DNA of 64,000 nucleotides from assembly GCF_002752655.1 (NCBI RefSeq), contig NZ_CP023737.1:930001-994000 (forward strand), written 5' to 3'. The position numbers were made by a program, and so were the translations under genes. The stretch comes from Methylosinus trichosporium OB3b (lineage in GTDB: Bacteria > Pseudomonadota > Alphaproteobacteria > Rhizobiales > Beijerinckiaceae). Each line of letters starts with the position of its first letter. The stretch's first letter is position 1. Under the pieces are notes generated by a model, which did not search any database, was not told where the DNA came from, and saw nothing but the letters and a program-made list of their open reading frames with translations. Of the stretch, positions 31,755-34,542 are shown piece by piece.

Positions 31755-31886
31755 TCAGAAGCCGCCGTGCGAAATGATCGGCGCGTAATGGATGAGCGTG
31801 AAAATCAAGCCCACCGCACCGAGGAACCAAGCGAGCGACTTGACCATCTCCTTGCCGGACCGCTGCATGGGATTGTCGGACATCAT
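31755..31886 (-). CDS. 43-aa membrane protein of the putative copper module
   Basis: MMSDNPMQRSGKEMVKSLAW starts the protein, one transmembrane helix spans about residues 17-39, and it ends ISHGGF. GGTGGAG 7 nt upstream of the ATG at 31886 supports the start. Its upstream region carries a palindrome (31964-31976) shared with two other units of the locus, 78 nt before the start. A diverged duplicate of the gene and its leader lies at 32147-32352. No known family recognised; the small size suggests an accessory subunit or a membrane-tethered regulator peptide. Confidence 0.65.
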   Translation of the reverse strand: MMSDNPMQRSGKEMVKSLAWFLGAVGLIFTLIHYAPIISHGGF

Positions 31887-31963
31887 TTTATCTCCACCGA
31901 CGCTTCTGCTCACGACAGAAGGATGCTGAGCGCAGAAGCGTCGAGACGCCCCAGCATGTTTCG

Positions 31964-31976
31964 TCGCAGTACGATG
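31964..31976. promoter_or_regulatory. Shared palindrome, site 1 (degenerate)
   Basis: GTCGCAGTACGAT, with 3 differences from ATCGTACTACGAT at 32340, lying 78 nt upstream of the 43-aa membrane protein gene (minus strand). One half-site (ACGAT) is intact. Confidence 0.45.
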
Positions 31977-32146
31977 CATCGCTGTGCGGAGCAAGCCTTT
32001 TTTTTGAGCTAAATGTGCTTTTCTTTCAAATGGTTCTGACAATGTTCGAGCGCGCGCCCCCGGCGCGCCGCTAATGCGGAATCGCGCCGCGAGCACGCTC
32101 GTGCGGGTCAGAGTGAATTGGAGTCTGGCCCCGGTTTCATCGTGAC

Positions 32147-32272
32147 CTATCCCGATACGTATCCGGGAGCCGCCCCGCCGGGAACGTCTCCCGGACTGCT
32201 CGTCGCTCCGACGAACCAGGCGAGCGACCTCACCGTTTCCTTGCAGGACATTTTCAAGGGACTATCAGACAT
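32147..32272 (-). pseudogene. Truncated duplicate of the 43-aa membrane protein
   Basis: MSDSPLKMSCKETVRSLAWF is clearly homologous to the first half of the 31755-31886 protein. After LAWFVGA the reading frame diverges into a Gly/Pro/Ala-rich tail with no transmembrane segment and stops at 32147. The DNA upstream (to about 32352) is also similar to that of the intact copy, including the palindrome. I infer tandem duplication followed by loss of the 3' half. Confidence 0.6.
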
Positions 32273-32339
32273 GTTTAAATCTCCGCCGACGCTTCTCCTC
32301 GAGACACCGAGCGGAGAACCGTCGAACGCCACCTCTTTA

Positions 32340-32352
32340 ATCGTACTACGAT
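32340..32352. promoter_or_regulatory. Shared palindrome, site 2
   Basis: ATCGTACTACGAT, perfect 5-bp arms around 3 nt, 68 nt upstream of the truncated duplicate's ATG (minus strand). Confidence 0.55.
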
Positions 32353-32488
32353 GCAATCTCACGATACGCAACCACATTTTTTGCATTAAATCATTTATTT
32401 CAAATAGTTATGCGAACACGCGAGCAGGCGCCGCGAAGCGGATCGCTGACGCGAACTCGCTCCGTCGACACGCTTCTCGAGCGCGTGA

Positions 32489-33070
32489 TTATTCAGATTC
32501 CGGCGCCCGCTCGTCGTCGCGGCGCTCCTTCGTGTCGTCACCCCCGTGCTCGCTTCGTCCCGACGACGCCTCGCCGCGCGTTCGCCAGCGCTCCATCGCC
32601 TCGGCGTCATGCGCATGCATCGCGTCCGGCGCTTCGACCGCGGCGTCGATCGTGACCTCTCCGGCCTTCTCGAAGACCAGGGTCATCTCAGCCGCCCAGC
32701 CCACCGGATTCATCTTCGATATGTCGACGAGCTCCACATGCGAGCCGCCGGGCGCCATGGTCACGCGGGAGAGCGGCGGCAGATAGATCGCGTCCTCGCG
32801 CGCGACGAGATGCGGAGCGATATGAAACTGTACCGAGCGGAAATCGGCGGATTTGACGCCGATCAGCCGGTCGGGCCGGTCGGCGGAGTTGACGACCAGC
32901 ATGTAGAGCTGCGCGCGCGTCTCGCCTTCGAGCGGCGCGCGCAGCCAGGGATGCTCGATCTTGATCTTGCCCACGGCATATTCATGCGCGCGCGCCGCGA
33001 ACGGCCGGCCGAGAAGGCCGGCCGCGACCGCAGCGCCGGCCGTGAGAATGCGTCGTCGATCAATGTTCAT
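32489..33070 (-). CDS. PCu(A)C-like periplasmic copper protein, predicted N-terminal histidine
   Basis: A 193-aa precursor. The signal peptide has a twin-arginine pattern (NIDRRRILTAG) and ends AARA, so mature residue 1 is His29 (HEYAVGKIKIEHPWLRAP). The domain is PCu(A)C-like (the IEHPWLRA start, APGGSHVEL near the end). The usual Met ligands of PCu(A)C are missing: FHIAPH replaces the H-x-x-M region and SHVEL replaces HxM. The C-terminal 40 residues are disordered and His/Asp/Glu-rich. GGAGG 8 nt before the ATG at 33070 sets the start. Methanotroph PCuAC proteins (PmoF) bind copper by a histidine brace at the N-terminus, which I take as the closest parallel. It lies 74 nt behind the gene at 33145-33717 and is likely co-transcribed. 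Confidence 0.75.
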   Translation of the reverse strand: MNIDRRRILTAGAAVAAGLLGRPFAARAHEYAVGKIKIEHPWLRAPLEGETRAQLYMLVVNSADRPDRLIGVKSADFRSVQFHIAPHLVAREDAIYLPPLSRVTMAPGGSHVELVDISKMNPVGWAAEMTLVFEKAGEVTIDAAVEAPDAMHAHDAEAMERWRTRGEASSGRSEHGGDDTKERRDDERAPESE

Positions 33071-33112
33071 CGCCGCCTCCGTGGATCGCCGCGCGCCCGG
33101 CGAACGAAGACG

Positions 33113-33137
33113 AGAGGGCCGCTGACGCGGCCCCTCG
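33113..33137 (-). promoter_or_regulatory. Intercistronic hairpin
   Basis: GGGCCGC and GCGGCCC form a stable stem with flanking GAG/CTC in the gap between the two copper-module genes. It has no T-run, so partial termination or mRNA processing that sets the ratio of the two products is more likely than full termination. Confidence 0.4.
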
Positions 33138-33144
33138 GCTCGGT

Positions 33145-33717
33145 TCACGCTTTGGCGGACGGCTTCTTGTTGAAGGAGTTTTTGTACCAGAGACCGAATC
33201 CGACCAGTCCCAGGGCGGCAAAAAACGTCATGACCGTGATGTCGCGCGTGGCGGTTTCACCGACCGAGAAGGGAAAGCGCGACACATAGACTTTCGTCCC
33301 GTCATCGTTCGACGCCTTCACGAGGCCGATGAACTTGCCCTTCTGCGCGAAATTATACTCGAAGTTGAGCGTTCCGGTCCGATATTTCTTGGGCGGAACA
33401 TAGGTCTCGGTGTTCTGCTCGAGATTTTCGTCGTCGTTCTTCTGACCAACGTCGCGGAGCACGCGAATCTCGAGATTCATGTCGCGCAGCTCGTCCTGCA
33501 CCGCGTCGAGCACGATGATGGTCGGCCCCACATCGGGGATATCGTCGCAGAATTGCTCGCGCGACTTCAGCGGCTGATAGCCCGTGAAGTTCATCTGATC
33601 CGGGCCGATCTTCATCTTGCACTGGCCTTCGTCGATGCTGACGCCGCCATGGGCCCAGGCTTGCGACACGCAAAAACCAGTCGCCAGCAATGTGGCGACG
33701 ATGAATTTGACGAACAT
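33145..33717 (-). CDS. Membrane-anchored periplasmic protein, predicted N-terminal histidine, PmoD-like layout
   Basis: A 190-aa precursor: signal peptide (MFVKFIVATLLATGFCVSQA, ending AWA), mature protein beginning HGG (His23), a soluble domain with Cys33, Met35, Met42 and Cys57 (QCKMKIGPDQM, EQFCDDIPDVG), and a C-terminal helix at about residues 160-178 followed by a Lys-rich tail. That places the domain in the periplasm tethered to the inner membrane. The layout and Cys/Met set recall the copper protein PmoD of methane oxidisers, but I see no CxC and call this resemblance tentative. The start at 33717 gives a normal signal peptide. The palindrome at 33799-33811 is 82 nt upstream, between this gene and the MarR gene. 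Confidence 0.65.
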   Translation of the reverse strand: MFVKFIVATLLATGFCVSQAWAHGGVSIDEGQCKMKIGPDQMNFTGYQPLKSREQFCDDIPDVGPTIIVLDAVQDELRDMNLEIRVLRDVGQKNDDENLEQNTETYVPPKKYRTGTLNFEYNFAQKGKFIGLVKASNDDGTKVYVSRFPFSVGETATRDITVMTFFAALGLVGFGLWYKNSFNKKPSAKA

Positions 33718-33798
33718 TCCGCTCTCTCCCCGCTCGCGCATTCGATAGCGCTCGTTGATCTTGCGCCGCGCGCCGCTCGCGGTTCCGCGTCACTATAA

Positions 33799-33811
33799 AT
33801 CGTGCTACGAT
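33799..33811. promoter_or_regulatory. Shared palindrome, site 3, between PmoD-like gene and marR
   Basis: ATCGTGCTACGAT, within a wider near-symmetric AT-rich context (CTATAA on one side, ATATCG on the other). It lies 82 nt before the PmoD-like start and 174 nt before the marR start. Plausible operator for the divergent regulator. Confidence 0.55.
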
Positions 33812-33984
33812 ATATCGACAAGCTTCGAGATCGAGCCCTATTGTCGCAGGGCGCGCGGGGCTTTGCGTCTCATCCCTCGGCGCAGGTGATTCGGAAGCGC
33901 GACCCACTGGGCGCCTTGACCAAGCGGGACGCGAAGGCCATCATTCTCCACCCGTCGACGAGGTCGCGAGCACGAGGAGCGAGC

Positions 33985-34542
33985 GTGAACCCGGCAGATT
34001 GCGATATTCTGGAGGCGCCCACCGCAAAGGCGCCGAAGGCGCGCCCCAGCGAGGACGAGCTGATCGCTTTGGCCAAATTCCGCCATGCGCTGCGGCGATT
34101 TCTGGCTTTCAGCGAGCAGGCCGCCGCCGATGTGGGCCTCACAATGCAGCGCTATCAGGCGCTTCTGGTGATCAAGACGTATCGCGGCGGCGATCATATC
34201 AGCGTCGGCGAGCTGGCCGAGCAGCTCATCATACGCGATCATAGCGCGGCCGAGCTGGTTTCCCGCCTGGTGCAGGCGAAGCTCGTGCGACGAAAGACCG
34301 ACCCGGAGGACCGTCGCCGTTCTCTCGTCGTCATAACGCCTTCGGGCGACCGCCGGCTAACGGAGCTGGCGGCCGCTCATCTGACGAAGCTGCGCGCCGA
34401 CAGGAAGGCTTTCCTCGATCTCTTCGACGGCCGGGAGCCTACGGCTCTGCGTCGCGACGACCTCGATGCGACAACCTTCGATGCGGCCGCCTTCGACGCC
34501 GCTGTCTTCGCGCGGCGGCCTACCCTTGCGAGCGACACGTGA
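33985..34542 (+). CDS. MarR-family transcriptional regulator
   Basis: A 185-aa winged-helix regulator. The core GLTMQRYQALLVIKTYRGGD, VGELAEQLIIRDHSAAELV and KTDPEDRRRSLVVITPSG are typical MarR elements: helix 2, recognition helix and the DxRxxxVxxT wing. GAGGAG 5-6 nt before a GTG at 33985 marks the start, although the frame is open to 33802. The C-terminal 30 residues are Asp/Ala-rich and unusual. It is divergent from the copper-module genes and probably controls them through the palindrome between; the ligand is unknown. Confidence 0.85.
   Translation: MNPADCDILEAPTAKAPKARPSEDELIALAKFRHALRRFLAFSEQAAADVGLTMQRYQALLVIKTYRGGDHISVGELAEQLIIRDHSAAELVSRLVQAKLVRRKTDPEDRRRSLVVITPSGDRRLTELAAAHLTKLRADRKAFLDLFDGREPTALRRDDLDATTFDAAAFDAAVFARRPTLASDT

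Follow-up and report, generated by a model that had tools for sequence, protein, structure and literature searches.

A MarR-type regulator and a conserved palindrome at a putative copper-responsive pmoD–pCuAC locus of Methylosinus trichosporium OB3b

The DNA analyzed in this work (hereafter, the window) is a 64-kb stretch covering positions 930001–994000 of the chromosome of the methanotroph Methylosinus trichosporium OB3b, whose genome (5.18 Mb) is distributed over four contigs. The window harbors a pmoD-like gene and a pCuAC copper chaperone gene, a divergently transcribed gene for a MarR-type regulator, a small gene coding for a protein of 43 amino acids, and copies of a 5-3-5 palindrome, ATCGT-N3-ACGAT. 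On the basis of the data reported below, it is likely that MarR represses pmoD–pCuAC, and probably the 43-residue gene too, through this palindrome, and that copper, directly or not, relieves the repression.

Genes and palindromes of the locus

The features of the locus, in window coordinates, are the following:

33985–34542, plus strand: marR-type regulator gene, 185 amino acids, GTG start; MarR domain by Pfam
33916–33944, plus strand: likely marR promoter, TTGACC-17-CATCAT, no palindrome inside; promoter scan
33799–33811, no strand assigned: operator 1, ATCGTGCTACGAT, exact arms, within the spacer of the pmoD promoter
33792–33821, minus strand: likely pmoD promoter, TTGTCG-18-TATAGT (TATAGT at 33792–33797), enclosing operator 1; promoter scan
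33145–33717, minus strand: pmoD-like gene of the Cx8MxnC class, by the match to 6cpd_A and the motif
32489–33070, minus strand: pCuAC copper chaperone gene; PF04314, 57.9 bits (cut-off 29.4)
32340–32352, no strand assigned: operator 2, ATCGTACTACGAT, exact arms, upstream of the partial duplicate
32147–32272, minus strand: partial, degenerate duplicate of the 43-residue gene, by DNA alignment
31963–31975, no strand assigned: operator 3, degenerate, ATCGTACTGCGAC on the strand of the gene, upstream of the 43-residue gene; two mismatches in ten arm positions
31755–31886, minus strand: gene for the 43-residue protein, one hydrophobic span, ending in IHYAPIISHGGF; orthologues directly downstream of pCuAC in genomes G042 and G078

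The product of the regulator gene, which is divergent from pmoD, matches two MarR families, PF12802 (MarR_2; 40.2 bits, cut-off 27, with the longer reading of the frame) and PF01047 (28.7 bits, cut-off 24.6). On the minus strand, and reading from right to left, pmoD and pCuAC are consecutive and are followed by the partial copy of the small gene and then by the intact 43-residue gene. The pmoD product matched 6cpd_A, a chain of a PmoD crystal structure, with an E-value of 1.3e-22, and hydrophobic stretches are visible by eye at both its N-terminal and C-terminal ends. An alternative in-frame ATG lies at 33741 (longest reading, 33145–33741); in this 198-residue reading, the protein shows the invariant Cys pair of PmoD (C41 and C65) and also M50. 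The motif of the CuA subclass, Cx7MxHxnC, was not found in this protein, which reads C41-x8-M50 and lacks the His; for this reason, we did not assign it to the CuA-type PmoD. As for the pCuAC product, its residues 29–159 are identical to chains 6p1f_A and 6p1g_A, the former beginning at His29.

The small open reading frame previously regarded as a truncated duplicate was recognized as such in the DNA alignment: it is a partial copy of the 43-residue gene, and the duplication takes in the upstream region too. The two products share 63% identity over residues 2–25, and their C-terminal halves cannot be aligned. Database searches with the 43-residue protein found six relatives.

Regarding the palindromes, both exact copies lie where the preliminary description of this DNA had placed them, the first one falling between the pmoD-like gene and the divergent marR gene, as claimed. 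The third site had been given as a version with three mismatches, and the count in the arms is two. Similarly, the near-constant distance of the sites from the start codons held, but not the values of 82, 68, and 78 nt, which on the coordinates are 81 (from the ATG at 33717), 67, and 76 nt; the first would become 57 nt if pmoD started at 33741. The window contains two sites with perfect arms, against a mean of 0.12 in 200 first-order Markov simulations, only three of which had at least two sites and none of which had two within 1.5 kb. With three mismatches allowed, the window yielded 30 matches versus 44.8 expected from shuffled sequences; a match at that level is uninformative by itself and cannot be used as evidence, and therefore operator 3 is judged on its position and on its orthologues. 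Counterparts of it were found upstream of the 43-residue gene of Methylosinus Sm6 (two mismatches) and of FeB_33 (one mismatch). Nine orthologues of this gene were examined overall: in three a site with up to two mismatches is located at −89 to −100 from the start of the match, three others share a three-mismatch version at −80 to −98, and one has an exact copy at −345.

It might be supposed that the likeness of the three sites simply reflects the recent duplication of one promoter within the locus. For sites 2 and 3 this may be partly true: both stand in front of copies of one small gene, and the DNA upstream of the two copies can be aligned. Site 1 contradicts the idea, as the gene behind it is unrelated, and 10 further loci retain sites upstream of pmoD or pCuAC (see below), so that duplication is a most improbable explanation for the set as a whole.

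Conservation of the palindrome with the regulator

We surveyed 119 genomes of the family, eight of which have PmoD relatives, and scanned named genomes with the MarR alignment, keeping the best 80 of 126 loci. In G042, G078, and G105, the marR gene is divergent from pmoD (MarR identity 73–78%), and each of the three gaps between the two genes contains two palindromes, 21–23 bp apart. Two genomes of the sister genus, G017 and G114, have pCuAC, and not pmoD, divergent from marR; here too the gap contains paired sites, 22 bp apart, which are strong in G017 and weak (2 + 2 mismatches) in G114. Among the close loci of the scan, seven have pmoD and one or more sites (L121, L122, L123, L124, L125, L126, and L140); L124 and L125 correspond to the G042 and G105 loci and were counted once. 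Altogether, with the locus of the window included, each of the 11 marR-linked loci found has a site in the region separating the two divergent genes, with either pmoD or pCuAC as the partner; nine of them have pairs 21–23 bp apart and two have single exact copies, and the mismatch level is at most one in 10, the exception being G114. The conservation of the palindrome upstream of orthologues, on which the preliminary description had staked its proposal, is thus borne out for the marR-linked loci.

The control was represented by pmoD genes not linked to marR. Of 60 pmoD matches, 30 were retrieved, four of which are linked to marR; none of the remaining 26 unlinked loci has a site with up to one mismatch over the 350 bp that precede the match, and the same holds for the sister-genus pmoD genes nearest to that of the window (L022–L025).

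Some of the linked loci have a peculiar organization. In L123 (the Methylocystaceae metagenome-assembled genome FeB_33), the gene run divergent from MarR comprises two pmoD genes, one of which is of the CuA type (Cx7MxH), together with CopC, CopD, PCuAC, a small protein, and the 43-residue gene (names assigned in part by inspection). CopC and CopD genes belong to the same gene run also in G105 (by Pfam; in FeB_33, by inspection of the sequence). In L140 (Methylosinus sp. Ce-a6), the linked pmoD appears in three tblastn pieces, as if it were frame-broken or mis-assembled. Moreover, a small gene located after marR in three loci (L048:10302–10673, L050:7541–7978, and L123:8445–8840) has the stretch VVCxRKxDIIKV in common, the similarity being judged by inspection.

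The promoters were then compared with the position of the sites. The marR promoter is about 100 bp from that of pmoD; since operator 1 falls in the spacer of the predicted pmoD promoter, and that of marR has no palindrome, this geometry suggests that it is the copper operon that is repressed, rather than a simple autorepression of marR. By eye, most of the linked pmoD and pCuAC promoters, and that of a gene for a Cys-rich protein (see below), exhibit a TTGC-like box followed by 3–5 nt, the palindrome, and a TATA element; the 43-residue gene and the SulP and RND genes discussed below fit this layout less clearly. Upstream of marR itself, the pattern TTGA[CT]...AT[CG][AT]T is present in eight of the 11 linked genes versus none of the eight unlinked ones examined (out of 15). 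The boxes described here fit the promoter consensus of Methylosinus sporium 5 (TYGMSV, 17 nt, TATAHT; PMC12403871), a strain with published transcription start-site data.

A position in the promoter spacer would also be compatible with activation, as this is where activators of the MerR type bind. MerR activators bind promoter spacers of 19–20 nt, whereas the spacers in question are of 16–18 nt, i.e., near the optimum; in addition, the second site, where present, is downstream of the −10-like box, and binding to it would block transcription. For these reasons, we judge it very unlikely that MarR activates pmoD.

Outside the close group, we considered 59 loci (range L142–L200) of distant MarR homologues (41–56% identity) from Methylobacterium, Bradyrhizobium, Caulobacter, Hyphomicrobium, and other genera; L151 was dropped from the site counts, its upstream region being too short. 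Of the 58 loci counted, 24 have an exact site in the upstream 350 bp and 44 have one with up to one mismatch, versus none for a reversed-arm control at either level. In a separate count, with a search window 12 bases longer, exact sites were found upstream in 25 of the 58 loci and in none of the equal downstream stretches. Only one locus (L191) of the 59 has a site pair, a weak one. A ClC-like gene is divergent from marR in 48 of the 59 loci (by tblastn, with two channels named by Pfam) and in 21 of the 24 having an exact site, and no match to pmoD, pCuAC, the Cys-rich gene, or the 43-residue gene was found in any of the 59. The fact that distant homologues keep the same upstream site provides independent support for the link between MarR and the palindrome, and the distribution indicates that the operator is a property of this MarR subfamily. 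Since these loci keep the site mostly beside ClC, without copper genes, the operator seems to predate its association with copper genes, the latter apparently having been wired to it at a later stage.

The ClC genes of OB3b and its relatives were rejected as members of the regulon, no site with up to one mismatch having been found in the eight stretches fetched. A plasmid contig of OB3b has a distant MarR gene (33% identity; G000:C3:107156–107434) immediately preceding one for a ClC channel, and the 4-kb stretch scanned has no palindrome with up to one mismatch.

These data bear also on the idea that a different regulator binds the palindrome, the neighboring MarR being incidental. Sites without a marR gene seen beside them do exist (those of the Cys-rich, SulP, RND, and formate dehydrogenase genes of OB3b and a cluster in G089, all described below), but a regulator may act on such sites in trans, and the site tracks the MarR subfamily across alphaproteobacteria despite changed neighbors, being exact in 24 of 58 distant loci with a null control. 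It seems very improbable that the binder is a protein other than MarR.

Copper response and further candidate targets

OB3b has three genes matching PF04314: one beside the pmoD of the pmo operon (where PmoA and PmoB were named by Pfam), one in the window, and one (2601000) without a pmoD match within 10 kb and without a site of up to one mismatch in a 10-kb stretch. According to PMC6189053, quantitative polymerase chain reaction revealed that the pCuAC-adjacent pmoD of OB3b, MettrDRAFT_3934, and its pCuAC are up-regulated by copper in parallel with the pmo operon and csp1. Given that the other two pCuAC genes either belong to the pmo operon or have no pmoD within 10 kb, the pmoD of the window is, by elimination, probably MettrDRAFT_3934. 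The same paper reports that a Cx8MxnC PmoD member binds copper without CuA features, that this class is common near PCuAC genes, and that the choice of methane monooxygenase in OB3b is set by copper availability. The copper role, previously proposed from the protein families, gains support, in that the pCuAC product corresponds to a solved copper-chaperone structure (6P1F) and the pCuAC-adjacent pmoD is reported to respond to copper (PMC6189053).

Nine exact sites occur in the OB3b genome: two in the window, one at the gene for a Cys-rich protein, two at a SulP permease gene, two inside predicted genes, one at an fdsG-like gene, and one at a formate dehydrogenase alpha-like gene. Paired sites are rare: a strict two-palindrome pattern had matches in four of the eight genomes, namely the four belonging to the genus of the window, whereas the four sister-genus genomes and the reversed control gave no match; its targets are the pmoD promoter in G105, the Cys-rich gene in OB3b, G042, and G078, and the SulP permease in OB3b. 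A relaxed pattern also recovered the sites before pmoD in G042 and G078, before pCuAC in G017, and before an RND gene in OB3b, together with five matches likely due to chance, the control still being zero. As for the six other exact sites of G078 and G042, five are in or overlap predicted genes and one is in a short intergenic gap.

The Cys-rich protein (loci L058, L098, L099, and L050:956–1237) is small and secreted, has no Pfam match, and has nine database relatives; six cysteines are invariant across ten sequences. The site pair of its gene, exact or with one mismatch, is present in OB3b, G042, and G078, whereas the G105 orthologue has a single one-mismatch site between TTGACA and CATATT. 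This protein is likely to be a further member of the regulon and is a candidate copper protein. In this respect, the "compact regulon" of the preliminary description finds support as a copper-handling gene set but not as one confined to the 31755–34542 region, as the regulon likely reaches outside it.

Other arrangements of the sites were observed. Two exact palindromes, 24 bp apart, are located about 140 bp upstream of the SulP permease gene of OB3b (G000:C1:4096502–4096538; L059:9502–9538), which is followed by what, by inspection, look like hydrogenase-4-like membrane subunits. A pair with 2 + 1 mismatches precedes an RND-like efflux gene set in the same genome (G000:C1:2029480–2029513; L060:9480–9513). 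Lastly, a region of about 4 kb in G089 (G089:C1:3547526–3551589; L097:7526, 9291, and 11577) contains three exact ATCGTNNNACGAT sites, around genes resembling, by inspection, an MFS-like transporter, a KefB-like antiporter, and UspA, with no marR seen beside them.

Proposed regulation and comparison with known systems

The most likely scheme of the regulation is the following. MarR (33985–34542) would act as a dimeric repressor of ATCGT-N3-ACGAT, occupying the −35/−10 spacer of the divergent pmoD promoter and blocking RNA polymerase while copper is scarce; in loci having a second palindrome two helical turns downstream, a second dimer would probably help. When copper becomes available, either the metal or a signal depending on it would release the repressor, allowing the synthesis of PmoD, PCuAC, and, probably, the 43-residue membrane protein, as well as that of the Cys-rich secreted protein from its separate locus. 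In the periplasm and in the inner membrane, these products would deal with copper, most likely for its supply to the particulate methane monooxygenase; marR, with its own palindrome-free promoter, would not be repressed in the same way. The sites, their geometry and conservation, and the linkage of the genes were observed directly, whereas the binding of MarR, repression as the sign of the regulation, the action of copper through MarR, and the delivery to the monooxygenase are steps that we infer.

Several observations weigh against this scheme. Fifteen of the 26 close MarR orthologues (14 in the scan plus that of G089) have neither an adjoining pmoD or pCuAC nor an upstream site with up to one mismatch. 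Operator 3 is weak, and two of the nine orthologues of the 43-residue gene (L122 and L113) are without a site of up to two mismatches. The match to MettrDRAFT_3934 was obtained by elimination and not by locus tag, in a search that found seven of the eight published pmoD genes. Furthermore, two exact sites of OB3b lie inside genes and two precede the fdsG-like gene (3486689; L004:1501–1513) and the formate dehydrogenase alpha-like gene (3378606; L202:4606–4618). Over seven genomes, the former is exact in OB3b and G089, with two mismatches in three genomes and three in two; the latter, out of 11 examined, is exact in one (OB3b) and has one mismatch in another (G078). The formate dehydrogenase sites could be bound by another regulator, e.g., the adjacent LysR-type protein. 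Neither gene was counted as a member of the regulon; the LysR-type gene adjoining fdsG in OB3b may own the fdsG element. Finally, the chloride channel is the usual partner of the distant homologues, so that copper is not an obvious ligand, and no Cys is conserved in MarR, either among seven aligned sequences or among the 26 close orthologues.

The last two points, together with the paired sites of the SulP and RND genes of OB3b, would favor a scenario in which MarR represses through the palindrome but responds to a signal other than copper (a small organic acid, a halide, acid, or redox), derived from a ClC-linked ancestor, the copper induction of pmoD being due to another regulator. On the other hand, pmoD or pCuAC is present in each of the 11 linked loci, the published response of the matched operon is to copper, and the two ClC genes of OB3b have no site with up to one mismatch within about 1.5 kb. 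Moreover, every one of the 26 close orthologues has His71, whereas in the distant group Pro and Ala are the commonest residues at this position and His is outside the top four; the sensing part of the protein may therefore have changed. Of the 59 distant homologues, 52 retain His86 and 55 retain His132. In our opinion, a signal other than copper is possible, though not probable.

Under repression relieved by copper, both a direct copper site without Cys and an indirect signal are possible. A broader scenario, which we regard as rather doubtful, is that a MarR associated with ClC in other alphaproteobacteria was recruited, along with its operator, as a copper-up regulator of Methylosinus-type methanotrophs; it would represent an unrecognized arm of the copper switch, with direct Cys-less sensing (candidate residues include His71), controlling PmoD, PCuAC, the 43-residue protein with its His-bearing tail, and a new six-Cys secreted copper protein.

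No report of the control of these genes by MarR was found in the open-licence literature, searched by titles and the beginnings of abstracts, and the main text of PMC6189053 has no mention of MarR. The system may be considered a testable candidate for a part of the methanotroph copper response, with one protein, one operator, and a short list of targets in a model strain; it also provides an example of a regulator–operator pair that has remained the same despite the replacement of its partner, a chloride channel gene, by copper genes.

PmoD, PCuAC, and MarR are known families. With the PmoD family (PMC6189053; Protein Data Bank 6CPD), the window gene shares the two conserved cysteines and the homologous periplasmic domain, and it falls in the Cx8MxnC subclass found near PCuAC; differently from the CuA-forming PmoD, it lacks the Cx7MxH ligands and is outside the pmo operon. 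The window PCuAC resembles the known chaperones (6P1F/6P1G, and their relatives PmoF1, 6P16/6P17), with no difference at the protein level, only the regulation being new; the related protein PmoF1 has a histidine-brace Cu(II) site, according to PMC10952591.

In common with MarR repressors having a divergent target, the system described here has the MarR domain, the divergent gene, the palindrome in the target promoter, and, probably, relief by a signal; in contrast to the typical ones, it has 5-3-5 palindromes, often paired 21–24 bp apart, and copper genes as targets. The MarR of E. coli responds to copper through Cys, and the MarR group of the window differs from it in being without a conserved reactive Cys. 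A further counterpart is the ClC-linked MarR subfamily, which has a homologous regulator and, exactly in 24 of 58 loci, the same ATCGT-N3-ACGAT upstream; there, the neighbor is usually a ClC channel gene.

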